Below, piece by piece: positions 27,846 to 34,362 of a stretch of DNA of 64,000 nt (positions within the stretch are counted from its first letter, which is position 1; each line of letters starts with the position of its first letter). Position numbers and translations under genes: made by a program. The stretch spans positions 4,092,001-4,156,000 of the forward strand of contig NZ_CP039371.1 of the NCBI RefSeq assembly GCF_005080685.1, given 5' to 3'. The stretch comes from Pseudomonas putida (GTDB taxonomy: Bacteria > Pseudomonadota > Gammaproteobacteria > Pseudomonadales > Pseudomonadaceae). The notes beneath the pieces were generated by a model that saw nothing but the letters and a program-made list of their open reading frames with translations, was not told the origin of the DNA and did no database searches.

Positions 27846-27935
27846 TGCGCGGCCACTGGGCAGAAAGCCGGAACTTTGCAGCCCGTGCCAAGGCTCGCAA
27901 GAAAGGCAGGACTTGTCTTTCAAAGGAGAACGCCA

Positions 27936-28610
27936 ATGGCCGTGAATATCGACAACCTGACCATCACAACCCCGGTGCCCAAATCCGCCAGCAACCCCGT
28001 TGCGCTCGAAGTGAGCGGTGCCCAGGCCCTGGCGACCCTGACCCAGGTAGTGGCCCGCCTGCCCGACGGCTCGATCCGCATGACCGCCCCCACCAAGGGG
28101 GCATCGAGCAAAAGCACCCACCGCACTCGCTGCGAATGGAAGGAAGCCGTGTATTGGGCGCTTGGCAGCGCCACTCGCCACCGCAACGCTCAGGCAATGA
28201 CCCTGGAAAAGGTCAACCTGGCGCAGAAAGTGGTGATTTCACAACTGCACGTCAAGGATGACGACAACCCGCCAATCAAGGTGTTCTGGAACAAGGGCAA
28301 GATCACCGTCGGCCTGCGCGCCGAATTCAACCAGGTGGCCAGCACCAGCAGCACCTTGCTGGCTGACGTGCCATTGGGCACACCGTTCGAGGTCGTCATC
28401 GAGGTCAGCGGCAGCGGTACTTGCACGGTCAACGCCAGCTGCAATGGACGCAACGGCACCGCCGCGACCCTGCAACTGGCAAGCTCCTGGGCGACCCGCA
28501 CCTTCAACTTCCATGGCGGGGTATACAACCAGGTCGACTACACCGATGAAACCCCGGCCGATGATGCCTCGATCTGTGTGATAAGCCGCCTGGAGCTGAC
28601 CCATGCCTGA
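27936..28610 (+). CDS. Polysaccharide lyase family 7 (alginate-lyase-like) protein
   Basis: 224 residues, the size of a single PL7 beta-jelly-roll. The three PL7 motifs are present in modified form: HRTRCEWKE at 62-70 (usual RxELR), SQLHVKDDDNPPIKVFW at 102-118 (usual QIH) and FNFHGGVYNQVDY near the C-terminus (usual YFKAGxYxQ). The start ATG 27936 has AAAGGAG. There is no signal peptide. PL7 enzymes cleave mannuronate/guluronate polymers by beta-elimination; cytosolic location would imply release by lysis or a dedicated export route, or action on imported oligomers. Confidence 0.75.
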   Translation: MAVNIDNLTITTPVPKSASNPVALEVSGAQALATLTQVVARLPDGSIRMTAPTKGASSKSTHRTRCEWKEAVYWALGSATRHRNAQAMTLEKVNLAQKVVISQLHVKDDDNPPIKVFWNKGKITVGLRAEFNQVASTSSTLLADVPLGTPFEVVIEVSGSGTCTVNASCNGRNGTAATLQLASSWATRTFNFHGGVYNQVDYTDETPADDASICVISRLELTHA

Positions 28611-30027: not shown

Positions 30028-30170
30028 GACTGATTCCTTATGCATAGGTGACCCCATGAAATCTAGACGATGCAGGCATGAGAAGCTCCGCCGACGGAGC
30101 AAGAAAACAAGCCAAATGTGGCGCACGCCCCTGAAACCATCCCCCGTTCTGGAACTTCCACATTTTCCGA

Positions 30171-30266
30171 CCCATAAAGAAAAACCCCGCAGACGTTAAT
30201 CTGCGGGGCTTTCGAATATGGAGGCCGAGGTCGGAATCGAACCGGCGTAGACGGATTTGCAATCCG
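30171..30266. repeat. attL: left 96-bp direct repeat with partial tRNA-Cys
   Basis: It begins CCCATAAAGAAAAACCCCGC and ends AATCCG. It holds a terminator hairpin (AACCCCGCAGA / TCTGCGGGGCTT at 30183-30211) and the 3' 48 bases of tRNA-Cys (30219-30266, minus), including the anticodon loop but not the 5' half. Identity with the right copy is complete over all 96 bases. Confidence 0.95.
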
Positions 30267-30690
30267 CTATAGGGCCTAGGTTTTTCGCGCCCTGCAGGCT
30301 GTAGGTCGCGTAATCACTGGTCTATGCCTTAATGGCTGGTGTTGGTAGTTCATGAGCATTTGGGACATCCAGTGTCCCAGGATTGTCCCTCGTCATGCGA
30401 GCCGGCCAATGACCAGAACTCCTACCACATCACCAGCTGCTGCCTCGTTCGGGCCATCGCTCAGCAGCAGTGTACCCTTGTTGCGCTTGCCGGTCAGATC
30501 ACCGTTGTGGCCGTCACCGTTCCCGGCACAGCGAAATTGCTGGTGTCCATATAACCACCATGAGTAGGCGAATCGACAGATCAATTATTGACCAGATGTG
30601 CAGCATTGCCACGCCTCGACGTTGGTTTATCAGGCAGCCGACGCTATCATGCTCGGCGTTTCATAAAGCTAATCAAAGATCAATGGACCG
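30267..30690. other. Non-coding or degraded left part of the element
   Basis: About 424 bases between attL and the epimerase gene. Short open frames exist on both strands (the longest on the minus strand, 30393-30584, is 63 codons) but none has a ribosome binding site or recognisable product. A small inverted repeat TGGGACATCCAGTGTCCCA lies at 30361-30379. Probably the rest of deleted phage genes plus the promoter of the next gene. Confidence 0.5.
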
Positions 30691-31695
30691 ATGAAAAAAA
30701 TATCAATTACCGTAGTTTCAGTCATAGCTCTCGCGCTAGTCGGATATGTTGGCTACCAATTCATACCTAAATGGCCAGATCCAGTCGTGTCTGAAAGCAA
30801 CTATGAATACGGAAAATCTCTTTTAGAGGATTTTAAAAAATCCCCATACAGACCTGCTCTCAGGTCGCAAGAGTACTCTCCTACCGGAGACTACATGAAC
30901 TACAGCAAAACCCAGTCATTCAAGAATGAGGGTCGTATCAAGCTCGATGGAAATGGGCTACCGACAGTTTTGTACGAAAGCCAATATCAGTATAACCCAA
31001 TAACAATTTCAAATTTCGCGCTGTACGAGTACGGAAAGAATCTTCCTGAAAGACCAACAAATAAGTTTTGGGCTGCCACAAATAAACTAATGTCCATGCA
31101 GGGATTTGATGGATCATTTAGGTATGGTTTCTCTTTCAAGCATTACGCGCTTTCAAAATCATACCCTGTCGGCTGGTCTAGCGGAATGGCTCAAGGTTTG
31201 GCCATGAGCGTTCTTGCTAGAGCCTATACATTTGACAAGCGTCAGGATTATCTTGACGCAGGTAATAAGGCTCTAGATTTTTTAATGGTCCCCGTATCTC
31301 ATGGCGGCCCACTTAGCTCAATGGCTGGACTTGATCCGTCTCTCAACAATTATATTTTCTTTGAAGAGTACATTGGTGACCGTGGAATCTACACGCTTAA
31401 CGGCTATATGTTTACCCTGATAGGATTATATGACTGGTGGAGTGTTACCGGATCAGAAAAGGCGCATGAAGCTTTTCAAGAAGGCATGAAGACATTAGTT
31501 AAAATATTACCTTACTACGACTTCGGGGGATCCTCATCATATGACCTTACTTTCAGGACTTATGGTCGAGAAAAACCGCACTACAACATCCGATATCATT
31601 CCACCCACATCTACCTACTAAATAACCTTTATTCAATAACAAAAAACAAAACTTTGAAGGAATTTTCTGAACACTGGAATCCAACAGGGCTTTGA
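30691..31695 (+). CDS. Membrane-anchored D-glucuronyl C5-epimerase-like protein
   Basis: 334 residues. One N-terminal hydrophobic segment (ITVVSVIALALVGYVGYQF) is a signal anchor, so the enzyme domain lies outside the inner membrane. The rest carries the blocks of the heparan/heparosan glucuronyl C5-epimerase C-terminal domain: YNPITISNFALYEYGK at 101-116, GWSSGMAQGLAMSVLARAY at 161-179, FFEEYIGDRGIYTLNGYMFT at 223-242 with LIGLYD, YDLTFR at 284 and RYHSTHIYLL at 301-310, including the Tyr residues involved in catalysis in animal enzymes. Expected action: inversion of C5 of uronic acid in a polymer. It is AT-rich, unlike its surroundings, a mark of recent transfer. The real substrate is unknown. 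Confidence 0.75.
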   Translation: MKKISITVVSVIALALVGYVGYQFIPKWPDPVVSESNYEYGKSLLEDFKKSPYRPALRSQEYSPTGDYMNYSKTQSFKNEGRIKLDGNGLPTVLYESQYQYNPITISNFALYEYGKNLPERPTNKFWAATNKLMSMQGFDGSFRYGFSFKHYALSKSYPVGWSSGMAQGLAMSVLARAYTFDKRQDYLDAGNKALDFLMVPVSHGGPLSSMAGLDPSLNNYIFFEEYIGDRGIYTLNGYMFTLIGLYDWWSVTGSEKAHEAFQEGMKTLVKILPYYDFGGSSSYDLTFRTYGREKPHYNIRYHSTHIYLLNNLYSITKNKTLKEFSEHWNPTGL

Positions 31696-31707
31696 TTAAA
31701 AGTGAAG

Positions 31708-33201
31708 CTATTCGTTAAGAATAGCTTCCCACATCAGATTCACTGCTACGCCTGCCGTCATGCTACCCCCGGTCGTATAGATACGAAGTGTTGCGCCGTT
31801 CGTGGTAATTGATATCGGTGTGTAGAATATGTTCACCCCGGCAGCAGAAAGGTTTCCATTCAGGCGCATTGACGGCGCTTTAGGGAACCTTCGATTGAAG
31901 GTGATTGGCACATCTTGGAATGTGGTGGCGGTTGTCACTGCTGCAACTGTACCACCCTCAGTCATGCCGCATACCTTTGCCGCATCGATGGTTGTGCCTG
32001 CTGGTGCGCCTGCGTTCGGAAGATCAACCTCAAATCTTACGCGGTCAAACTGAGTGCCTGAGAGGCTCTGAATTATGCCGTTCGAGGAACGAGTTACAGG
32101 GGAATCAGGACAGTTTATCTTTATGTCAACACACTTTCCTGTAGCAGTAGATCCACGGTTTACAATCTTGATTGGAATCCTAGCATTCGGCGCGCTCATA
32201 TCGATATCGCGGAAAGTCATGCACCCACCTAGAATGGTGTCCGCTGACATGCTCACACTGTTTCCTCCGCAATCAATCACACCCCGGCTGGTAGTCGAAG
32301 GATCGCCGTCTGCGATTATCTTGAAACCTTCAAACAGGAAGCTGGTTCCACGCATCTCGTTGATAGAGATTGCAACACCGTTACCCGTGGCAGCCAGAGC
32401 TGGAGCGAAGACCGTGCCACCGCGCACACTGTTGTGATTGCCGCTGATAGTCACGCCATTACGGTGGATGCAGTTCACGTACTGGCAATGCTCAACGTTT
32501 CCATGCATATCCGACCCTTGGACATCCCAAGAAGACGTTTCTGCGCCATCAACAACGCAGAAGCGCGTTGGCACACTGCCAGGCAAATCGTTACCTCCCA
32601 TGGTGATGCCATGCCGCCTAGCGTGAAATGTCCCACCCGAAACAAGACAATGCTGCGCGTTACTGAGTCTGAGCCCGTAGTTGTCAGCCGCTGCTGACTC
32701 CCTATCGCTGAATGTCTCGCAGAACAGGGAAGTTCCCCCAAGTGCCCGCTGGTGAATGATGCCGCCACCTGATGTACCAAATACCCGCACGTACTCGAAT
32801 TGGGCATTGCGCGTTACATCGCCGAGAAGCCCAGCAATCATCACACCGCTGGTAGGCATCAAAATGTCACCACCGCGGATCTTCGGCCTGGTGGGATTCA
32901 TCTTGTAAATCTTCAGGCCCTTGCCGTTGCCATCCAGCACGATCGACATACTTGCCAGGATTGGAGCGGTGAGGTTGACAGTCAGTCCGCTTACACTCCG
33001 AGCCGCGGCGGTCGCCCCCTGGTAGGCCGCCAGTACGCTCGCCAGAAGTTGGGCGGCGTGGTTATCGACACCGTCCCCGTGACCGCTGCACCACCCCCGG
33101 CGCCAGCCTGGACCCCTGACTTCTCCCGAGTGAAGTGAAATGCGACCCAGAAGTACCGAGAATCGCGACCTGCCGCCGGGCATGTACCGGCGCAAGCGCA
33201 C
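31708..33201 (-). pseudogene. Phage tail-spike-like beta-helix protein, N-terminally damaged
   Basis: The open frame codes for up to 497 residues, but the first about 40 are not protein-like and overlap the 5' end of the integrase gene on the other strand. From about residue 42 (GDGVDNHAAQLLASVLAAYQ) it looks like the usual spike start, then a right-handed beta-helix (SIVLDGNGKGLKIYK, DNYGLRLSNAQHCLVSGG, HRNGVTISGNHNSVRGG). The last about 80 residues (FQDVPITFNRRFPKAPSMRL ... AVNLMWEAI) resemble the C-terminal domain of tail fibres. A second frame (HFTREKSGVQAGAGG) just upstream may be the displaced N-terminus, suggesting a frameshift or fusion point near 33080. A spike would bind or cut a surface polysaccharide. 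Confidence 0.6.
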
Positions 33202-34192
33202 CAGGAAGAACGGAAAGGTGTGGGTCGGGTACTACTACCGCGACCAGAACGGCAAGGAAATCCCACTCGGTACCGACCTGGTGCAAGCCAAGCTGGAGTG
33301 GGCGGCCCTGGAGGCAAAGGCGACGCCGAGCGAACTGAAGACCATGCAGGGCATTTTCGACGAGTACGAGCGCAAGATCATCCCGGGCAAGGCAGCACGG
33401 ACGCAGAAGGACAACATCTACGAGCTCAAGCAGCTGCGGGCCGTGTTCGATTCAGCGCCGATCGATGCCATCACGCCAGCCATGATCGCCCAGTACAGGG
33501 ATTCGCGGTCGGCCAAGACACGCGCAAACAGGGAGATCGCCCTGCTCTCCCACGTTTTCAACACGGCGCGGGAATGGGGGCTGACCACACGGGATAACCC
33601 GTGCTTGGGCGTGAGAAAGAACAAGGAGAAACCGCGCGACTTCTACGCCAACGAAACGGTGTGGCAGGCGGTGTATGAGGCAGCTCCACCGGAGCTGAAG
33701 GATGCGATGGACCTGGCGTACCTGACCGGCCAGCGACCGGCAGACGTACTGTCCATGCGAAAGGACGATGTGGAGGGAATCTATCTACTGGTCAGCCAGG
33801 GCAAAACCAGCAAACGATTGAGGATCGTCCTTGAGGTGGACGGAGTGAAGAACAGCCTGGGACTGCTGCTCGAGCGCATCATGATCCGCACCAGCCAGCA
33901 CCTGTCGCCGTTCTTCATCGTCAACGAGCACGGTAAGCGCATGAGCTGGGCGATGCTGCGCAATCGCTGGGCAGATGCGCGGGAGGACGCCAGAGTGAAA
34001 GCCGAGGTCGAGAAGAAGCCTGACCTGGCCAATCGAATCGCCCAGTTCCAGTTCCGCGATATCCGACCGAAGGCGGCGTCGGAGATCAACGACCTGAGCG
34101 ATGCAAGCGTGCTGTTGGGGCACTCAAAGGAGGGAATTACCGAGCGTGTTTACCGCCGCGTCGGGGCCATCGCCAAGCCTTCGAAAGGCTGA
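33140..34192 (+). CDS. Phage-type tyrosine recombinase (integrase)
   Basis: 350 residues. MRPRSTENRDLPPGMYRRKR followed by KVWVGYYYRDQNGKEIPLG is an N-terminal arm-binding domain. A core-binding SAM-like domain follows (about 70-165). The catalytic domain has LAYLTGQRPADVLSMR with the first Arg, a Lys in SQGKTSKRL, FRDIRPKAASE with the second Arg, LLGHSKEGITERVYRR with His and the nucleophilic Tyr. All key residues are there except that the His before box II is replaced by Arg, as is common in this subgroup. The gene ends 48 bases before attR and is expected to drive integration at tRNA-Cys. Confidence 0.93.
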   Translation: MRPRSTENRDLPPGMYRRKRTRKNGKVWVGYYYRDQNGKEIPLGTDLVQAKLEWAALEAKATPSELKTMQGIFDEYERKIIPGKAARTQKDNIYELKQLRAVFDSAPIDAITPAMIAQYRDSRSAKTRANREIALLSHVFNTAREWGLTTRDNPCLGVRKNKEKPRDFYANETVWQAVYEAAPPELKDAMDLAYLTGQRPADVLSMRKDDVEGIYLLVSQGKTSKRLRIVLEVDGVKNSLGLLLERIMIRTSQHLSPFFIVNEHGKRMSWAMLRNRWADAREDARVKAEVEKKPDLANRIAQFQFRDIRPKAASEINDLSDASVLLGHSKEGITERVYRRVGAIAKPSKG

Positions 34193-34193
34193 G

Positions 34194-34237
34194 GTTTCGG
34201 AACTCCATGCCTTTAGTTTCGGAACTCCTGCCTTTTT
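34194..34237. repeat. Two tandem 22-bp repeats between integrase and attR
   Basis: GTTTCGGAACTCC-A-TGCCTTTA is followed directly by GTTTCGGAACTCC-TGCCTTTTT. Such repeats beside an integrase gene and att core are candidates for integrase arm-type or excisionase sites. A diverged copy (TCTGGAACTTCC) is found at the same distance left of attL. Confidence 0.5.
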
Positions 34238-34240
34238 CAG

Positions 34241-34336
34241 CCCATAAAGAAAAACCCCGCAGACGTTAATCTGCGGGGCTTTCGAATATGGAGGCCGAGG
34301 TCGGAATCGAACCGGCGTAGACGGATTTGCAATCCG
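34241..34336. repeat. attR: right 96-bp direct repeat within intact tRNA-Cys
   Basis: Same 96 bases as attL. It includes the tRNA terminator and, from 34289, the 3' half of tRNA-Cys, which continues into the host 5' half at 34337. Confidence 0.95.
34253..34281 (-). terminator. Terminator after tRNA-Cys
   Basis: AACCCCGCAGA and TCTGCGGGGCTT pair around CGTTAA; the A-run on the plus strand is the T-run on the minus strand. The same hairpin is repeated at 30183-30211 in attL. Confidence 0.85.
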
Positions 34337-34362
34337 GAGCATAACCACTTTGCTACTCGGCC
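34289..34362 (-). tRNA. tRNA-Cys (GCA)
   Basis: 74 bases on the minus strand with encoded CCA. Acceptor GGCCGAG pairs with CTCGGCC; the anticodon loop ATTGCAAAT carries GCA between the CCGG/CCG-side stems; GGTTCGATTCC is the T-arm. Its 3' half comes from the integrated element and is identical to the remnant at 30219-30266. Confidence 0.97.

Follow-up and report, generated by a model that had tools for sequence, protein, structure and literature searches.

We found that a 64,000-nucleotide stretch of the Pseudomonas putida genome (contig NZ_CP039371.1, positions 4,092,001 to 4,156,000; hereafter the window) carries a 4.07-kb element at a tRNA-Cys gene, and it appears nearly certain from its sequence that this element is a prophage that lost its interior in one deletion. 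The element retains an integrase, the end of an excisionase-family gene, a tail-spike fragment and a gene of the D-glucuronyl C5-epimerase family. We hold with good confidence the combined explanation that a single deletion collapsed a prophage whose epimerase would be an O-antigen conversion enzyme.

The element is bounded by two copies of a repeat (Table 1) that are identical at 96 of 96 positions by exact extension and spaced 4070 bp apart, and the repeat comprises the 3' 48 nt of the tRNA-Cys gene plus the terminator hairpin. Since the 20-mers of the repeat had no further copy in the 64 kb scanned and 96 bases are identical, a chance origin is not possible. The outline given in the original prediction, a 4.07-kb element between perfect 96-bp repeats that include half of the tRNA-Cys and its terminator, was therefore exact to the base, with the tRNA assigned by ARAGORN. 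Between these attachment (att) repeats, the order was found to be three hexamers and a tip shared with another prophage, the epimerase (plus strand), the spike remnant (minus strand), the excisionase-family remnant (plus strand) and the integrase (plus strand). The integrase, which had been described as looking intact, is intact and matches the Pfam domains given in Table 1. No replication, packaging or head genes were seen among the open reading frames (ORFs) of the element, as had also been claimed; family scans were made for the three large ones and for two short pieces. Satellite-type genes for replication, regulation or capsid hijacking, as in phage-inducible chromosomal islands or P4, gave no match among the three large ORFs, and the short ORFs were only partly scanned. 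No NCBIfam model covers the window integrase or the window epimerase.

Of the two options in the original prediction, a prophage reduced by deletion is borne out by one sharp junction that cuts two phage genes with known intact homologues, in an element whose ends match larger prophages at tRNA-Cys. In blastn comparisons, homology on the integrase side starts at position 33000 in the genomes G015, G003, G009, G131 and G238 and in a second prophage of the host; it starts at 33003 in the other integrase locus of G125 and at 33091 in G019. Upon alignment with G015, G003, G009, the host second prophage and phage PseuP_222, all five relatives matched the window at every base from 33000 to 33005, and the agreement before 33000 was 0.23-0.33 per 15 bases, which is near chance. 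Two intact relatives of the excisionase-family gene (80-81 aa; G003 and PseuP_222) were scanned and matched DUF4224 (PF13986), and the family phrog_4764, annotated as excisionase, matched across their length. By eye, the overlap between the spike homology and the excisionase-family homology is no longer than about 3 bases, a pattern that illegitimate recombination would give. An assembly misjoin fusing two prophage ends is scarcely credible given that minimal overlap, the location of the window on one 6.5-Mb contig of a two-contig assembly and the lack of any further match to the PF22442 spike family in the host genome.

The gene opposite the junction had been called a partial tail spike, and this description stood for its C-terminal part only. 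In particular, the ORF at 31708-33201 on the minus strand aligned over residues 64-497 with positions 280-717 of the 718 in the tail family phrog_13768, but its first ~66 codons are not spike; they are the antisense of the integrase start and of the truncated excisionase-family gene. Eleven intact homologues of 657-792 aa covered 88% of the window ORF at identities of 47-85%, and the window spike starts where P0081, a homologue of 720 aa, has about residue 291. A match to the LKA1 tail spike gp49 (4ru4; E 1.3e-21) covered chain residues 168-598, and the fragment, which is 26% identical to gp49, spans its smallest active fragment (389-584). Of the putative active-site residues of LKA1 gp49 (Asp497, His494, His499, Arg329 and Arg459), Asp497, His499 and Arg459 are matched by D231, H233 and R196, His494 is replaced by Gln228, and Arg329 lies before the aligned region. 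In the sections of PMC5701251 that treat this enzyme, gp49 is described as an O5 O-antigen lyase whose beta-elimination yields a 4,5-unsaturated 2,3-diacetamido-2,3-dideoxyhexuronic acid. Among 298 Pseudomonas genomes, the spike body was found only in this one; the other matches, except that of G004, are to the end of the ORF that is antisense to the integrase and excisionase-family genes. When viral contigs were searched with a spike alignment, the L069 contig was the single locus recovered. The fragment is useless as a virion part.

We compared the tRNA-Cys stretch, present in 297 of the 298 genomes, by typing same-contig pairs of att copies in 72 re-searched, better-matching genomes with two or more copies. 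Among the matches listed, 58 att intervals were found in 47 genomes and classed by length (33 of at most 15 kb, 4 of 15-40 kb and 21 of 40-57 kb). Integrases close to that of the window were found at tRNA-Cys in G015 (57.2-kb interval, 84% identity, tail genes near the far att), in G003 (48.7-kb interval, 82%, with a neighboring 45.9-kb interval) and in G131 (94%, next att copy 32.9 kb away). Near the far att copy of G131, a tail protein of 710 aa carries the anchor domain found in the window spike family and is oriented towards the att, as in the window. These three intact prophages and phage PseuP_222 have the same order of integrase and excisionase-family genes as the window; they retain their interior, whereas the window element does not. 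The features of a cryptic prophage are present, namely an integrase between att halves at a tRNA, truncated phage genes and undeleted relatives at tRNA-Cys. The interval in G125 (L116, G125:C1:2906000-2916000) is 4.9 kb long, with an integrase of 60% identity and a tip in common with the window, and near its att it carries phrog_4770, the gene family located after the tail protein in G131. It is a second prophage that collapsed independently. Another small interval, in G285 (L117, G285:C15:83500-93500), is 4.65 kb long and contains other cargo and no integrase relative. The larger prophages together with the G125 collapse indicate that prophage decay at tRNA-Cys is recurrent, and the window contains one instance of it.

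The original prediction had offered as its other option a minimal mobile element, in which an integrase and glycan cargo would have evolved to move as a 4-kb unit. The intact integrase and exact att repeats would suit such a unit, and intervals of at most 15 kb are common at tRNA-Cys (33/58 among the matches listed); however, a single base marks the truncation of both the excisionase-family gene and the spike, the spike body is confined to this one of the 298 genomes, and the two other small intervals compared by integrase give it no counterpart, as that of G125 is also a collapsed prophage and G285 lacks an integrase relative. We consider this option very improbable, and both it and a phage satellite were rejected on the basis of the junction and the gene content. 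Trans-mobilization by the second prophage of the host is also unlikely; its related integrase (67% identity; G000:C1:4215557-4216603, L062/L063), with an excisionase-like gene region, lies 90 kb downstream beside a tRNA-Ser.

Several further observations were made at the tRNA-Cys loci. In G003, three att copies (L048/L049/L056) are separated by 45.9 and 48.7 kb, which suggests that a single tRNA-Cys carries two prophages in tandem. In L053 (G007), L054 (G006), L134 (G210) and L139 (G184), the integrase 3' end alone was present beside tRNA-Cys, as scars of earlier prophages. The joined window flanks were compared with the eight genomes listed with one tRNA-Cys copy; the right flank plus tRNA end matched in 8/8 (83-88%) and the left flank in 0/8, an integrase 3' scar is present in two of these genomes, and left-flank DNA was located past the own element of G125 (74% over 271 bp). 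In the full-length G015 prophage, the genes at the distal end (L057:2777-5746) resemble, by eye, an arsenic-resistance set.

The cargo gene was correctly recognized as an AT-rich C5-epimerase, matching PF06662 with an E-value of 1.6e-54 and 184.7 bits (curated cut-off 23.3) at a G+C content of 0.41 versus 0.63 across the window. It is convergent with the spike gene, from which only 31696-31707 separates it. The epimerase matched the C-terminal domain of vertebrate GLCE by sequence (E 7e-24), and all eight fold matches of its AlphaFold2 model (predicted local distance difference test score 92) at E <= 0.001 are C5-epimerases. In human GLCE, according to the part of PMC12834895 that deals with catalysis, the C5 proton is abstracted by Tyr578 and one is returned by Glu499. 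The corresponding epimerase residues, Y302 and E226, were identified after the numbering offset had been fixed through a Tyr/Phe difference between two deposited chains, and both were invariant in 16 aligned sequences and in 11 more diverse ones. The window epimerase is similar to vertebrate GLCE (6hzz, 6i01 and 4pw2) in C-terminal domain sequence, fold and these two residues, but the vertebrate chains have 527-585 aa and the window protein, a bacterial or phage enzyme, has 334. The helix at its N terminus (residues 2-24) suggests that the enzyme is anchored in the membrane and works in the periplasm.

We found that relatives of this epimerase commonly accompany tail genes in phages. A single-sequence scan of viral contigs for the epimerase gave no match, and an alignment-based search of IMG/VR found 13 loci with a relative. 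By profile, the epimerase adjoins a tail gene in 11 of these: a member of the phrog_13768 spike family in L069, L076 and L080, fiber genes in L078 and L079, and a fiber-assembly gene in L081, with L070-L074, which are near copies of each other, having the epimerase about 0.65-0.8 kb off, in front of a tail fiber. For both the spike P0083 and the epimerase P0002, the longest contig is given as 3914 bases, and the two probably come from one contig. Among GenBank phages, 16 records matched, 15 from P. aeruginosa and one from Bradyrhizobium, the latter with the epimerase gene downstream of a tail-fiber gene. In CF213a and CF23a, the two P. aeruginosa records opened, an epimerase of PF06662 follows a 747-aa phrog_13768 spike, and the CF213a spike was 95% identical to orf27 of phage D3 (pair compared).

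Serotype conversion by D3 is reportedly the subject of a 2001 paper by Newton, going by its title in the reference list of PMC7168646. Behind orf27, D3 carries iap, oac and wzy-beta (AF165214), annotated as an inhibitor of alpha-polymerase, a putative O-antigen acetylase and an O-antigen beta polymerase, and D3 conversion is described in a passage of a review (PMC11436027). The epimerases of CF213a and CF23a occupy this known conversion slot of D3. The D3 locus, like those of CF213a and CF23a, has a surface-modifying gene directly behind an LKA1-like spike, and the window spike and epimerase are likewise adjacent. The two differ in cargo and setting: the D3 genes are those annotated above, whereas the window, from a different Pseudomonas, has a C5-epimerase that converges with its spike and lies within a collapsed prophage.

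The host O-antigen locus (L058) contains genes that we read as wzz, wbpA, wbpB, wbpD, wbpE, wzx, wzy, wbpI, wbpL and wbpM, the wbp names coming from gene order, with NCBIfam cut-offs reached only by general sugar dehydrogenase and UDP-GlcNAc 2-epimerase models. WbpA, B, E, D and I form the five-enzyme UDP-ManNAc3NAcA pathway of PAO1, according to the portion of PMC10622841 that covers it. Adjoining wbpM is a second C5-epimerase, 61% identical to that of the window and with an open frame. The acyltransferase after it is split across three frames (54-63% identity to that of L071), and the endolysin fragment nearby showed 83% identity over 36 residues to a G003 phage endolysin and a weak phrog_90 match; L071 has the same gene order but an endolysin of another family (phrog_181). 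Only at this copy, where the epimerase frame stayed open next to decayed phage-type neighbors, is there a hint of selection. Epimerase relatives were found in 4 of the 298 Pseudomonas genomes, all four being among the 16 with a WbpI relative (E <= 1e-80) and also belonging to the 36 whose WbpD reaches at least 73% (of 40 listed, four were at 43-47%); hypergeometric values were 5.7e-6 for WbpI and 1.8e-4 for WbpD, both ignoring relatedness and the post-hoc choice of genes. Each of the four has an epimerase-domain gene within ~8 kb of wbpI. The epimerases of the three non-host genomes are just ~27-33% identical, and in two of the four genomes they are 1400-aa proteins with a transglutaminase domain. 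In Pseudomonas sp. BBP2017 (L095), the epimerase lies directly behind a wbpM relative (83%); the locus also includes a WbpI (71%), and the genome a WbpD (91%). Additionally, 10 of 33 bacterial genome loci with epimerase relatives had a neighbor resembling WbpI (at least 45%) or WbpD (at least 50%).

We reconstruct the course of events as follows. The comparisons show that a temperate phage with the window integrase integrated into tRNA-Cys and that a single later deletion fused its excisionase-family gene to its spike gene, cut near residue 291 by the numbering of the 720-aa homologue. The integrase stayed with one att end, and across the junction the epimerase and the spike tail stayed with the second. 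With the excisionase-family gene cut, excision may be poor or absent, and the element would be a fixed relic with a live gene. The epimerase would be a lysogenic-conversion gene travelling with the spike. Its product, held by an inner-membrane anchor on the periplasmic side, would invert C5 of an O-antigen 2,3-diacetamido-hexuronic acid from D-ManNAc3NAcA to L-GulNAc3NAcA. The inverted O antigen would be neither recognized nor cut by the lyase-type spike of the phage itself or by related phages, and the relic could continue conversion without the phage. That the epimerase is an O-antigen-converting enzyme seems to us fairly probable, and we propose the exact substrate only tentatively, at somewhat short of even chances. 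All three reading frames, the ~430 spike codons, the epimerase and the integrase, are open, which points to a recent collapse that would account for them. Selection for the cargo, part of the original prediction, was not borne out at tRNA-Cys: the spike fragment is useless and as free of stops as the epimerase, so the open epimerase frame is no evidence of selection there.

It is rather unlikely, in our estimate, that the element is a collapsed prophage whose epimerase modifies another polymer, such as an exopolysaccharide or capsule containing glucuronic acid (GlcA), or is a passive passenger without effect on adsorption. The known activity of the family on GlcA polymers would fit this alternative, as would an intact frame that is uninformative next to an equally intact spike fragment, but epimerases were found beside wbpM, in the D3 conversion slot and co-occurring with WbpI. 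Conversion of the O antigen following a one-deletion collapse remains our preferred explanation, and several observations weigh against it. C5 inversion of a polymer uronic acid by the window epimerase is a prediction, and the PF06662 enzymes of animals act on GlcA. The D3-type phage epimerase is only distantly related to that of the window (26%, E 4e-6) and has Met at the position of Tyr227, which is Tyr in the others; the window spike has Gln228 in place of LKA1 gp49 His494. Among the IMG/VR loci, the epimerase frame of L080 is broken, and no recognizable tail neighbor was found in L075 (a family of unknown function) or L077 (no PHROG match). In 23 of the 33 bacterial loci, several of them on short contigs, no WbpI- or WbpD-like neighbor was present in the available sequence. 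The comparison of tRNA-Cys loci that had been proposed did reveal prophage-sized relatives, but there was no clean empty site among the eight single-copy genomes. An undeleted sister prophage with the same spike and epimerase was not found; no epimerase was detected by profile in eight far-end or small-element stretches, including that of G131, or by search in the G131, G015 and G003 genomes. A scan for promoter-like sites gave no excess over expectation.

The coordinates of the features are given in Table 1. GGGACA/TGTCCC hexamers near the att were also present in L116 (G125), L119 (G166) and L048 (G003) and were not found in the examined pieces of L056, L057 and L047; they are perhaps integrase arm sites. 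The region 30146-30535 was 80% identical over 397 bp to the left end of the prophage in G125, and in the tip at 30393-30535, which the original prediction had not listed, C-terminal residues 30-61 of a 63-aa ORF matched a phage MR14 hypothetical protein at 85% identity. The tip was read by eye as that of an old fiber; the profile scan gave no PHROG match for it, nor family support for a fiber reading of L116:6936-7361 in G125. Speculatively, the position of this shared tip beyond both genes could mean that spike and epimerase came in together, as one cassette, in front of a late gene that was already there. Outside the element, near a tRNA-Leu, a 244-aa protein (27876-28610, plus strand) resembles by eye an ORF of the host second prophage (L062:10497-11171) and is possibly phage-derived.

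Table 1. Features of the tRNA-Cys element and of the epimerase copy beside wbpM (window positions unless a genome locus is given).
Feature	Position	Strand	Basis
Left att repeat, with the 3' half of tRNA-Cys plus its terminator hairpin	30171..30266		96/96 identical to 34241-34336
Three GGGACA/TGTCCC hexamers directly inside left att	30362..30389		Motif comparison
Tip of phage late-region gene	30393..30535	-	G125 left end; phage MR14 hypothetical protein
D-glucuronyl C5-epimerase family protein, 334 aa	30691..31695	+	PF06662; GLCE structures; AlphaFold2 model
Terminator-like stem between convergent spike and epimerase genes	31704..31728	-	Hairpin scan; such scans gave fewer sites than shuffles
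C-terminal ~430 residues of LKA1 gp49-like tail spike, without anchor and start	31708..33000	-	phrog_13768, PF22442, 4ru4
Deletion junction	32998..33002		Five-relative alignment
Last 46 codons of excisionase-family (DUF4224) gene, upstream of integrase	33000..33138	+	Intact relatives 80-81 aa
Tyrosine integrase, 350 aa, intact	33140..34192	+	Pfam Phage_integrase, Int_N, lambda-type arm-binding domain
att repeat, right copy, within intact tRNA-Cys and its terminator	34241..34336		Exact repeat; ARAGORN
tRNA-Cys (GCA), intact, integration site	34289..34362	-	ARAGORN
Second C5-epimerase, frameshifted acyltransferase and endolysin fragment, adjoining wbpM	G000:C1:1628811-1631389 (L058:18812 to L059:1390)	Opposite to wbpM	Phage-derived

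The relic itself is an ordinary kind of thing, as collapsed prophages are common. A title and abstract search of open-licence papers found none that tied a C5-epimerase to phage conversion, which is no proof of absence, and the string 'epimer' is absent from the text of the superinfection-exclusion review (PMC11436027). We propose, with the chances about evenly balanced, that temperate phages pair a polymer-level C5 epimerase with a lyase-type spike. The epimerase would invert the carbon at which the spike carries out beta-elimination, making the O antigen of the lysogen uncuttable for the same and related phages, and hosts would retain the gene after the phage is lost, here possibly twice (the tRNA-Cys relic and the wbpM-side copy). 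C5-epimeric O-antigen variants exist among Pseudomonas serotypes with one common biosynthesis cluster. If the explanation is true, C5 inversion would be a further O-antigen conversion chemistry beside acylation, glucosylation and polymerase switching, phage exclusion would follow simple chemistry, with a lyase spike facing inverted uronate, and phages would be a genetic source of C5-epimeric O antigens in Pseudomonas.

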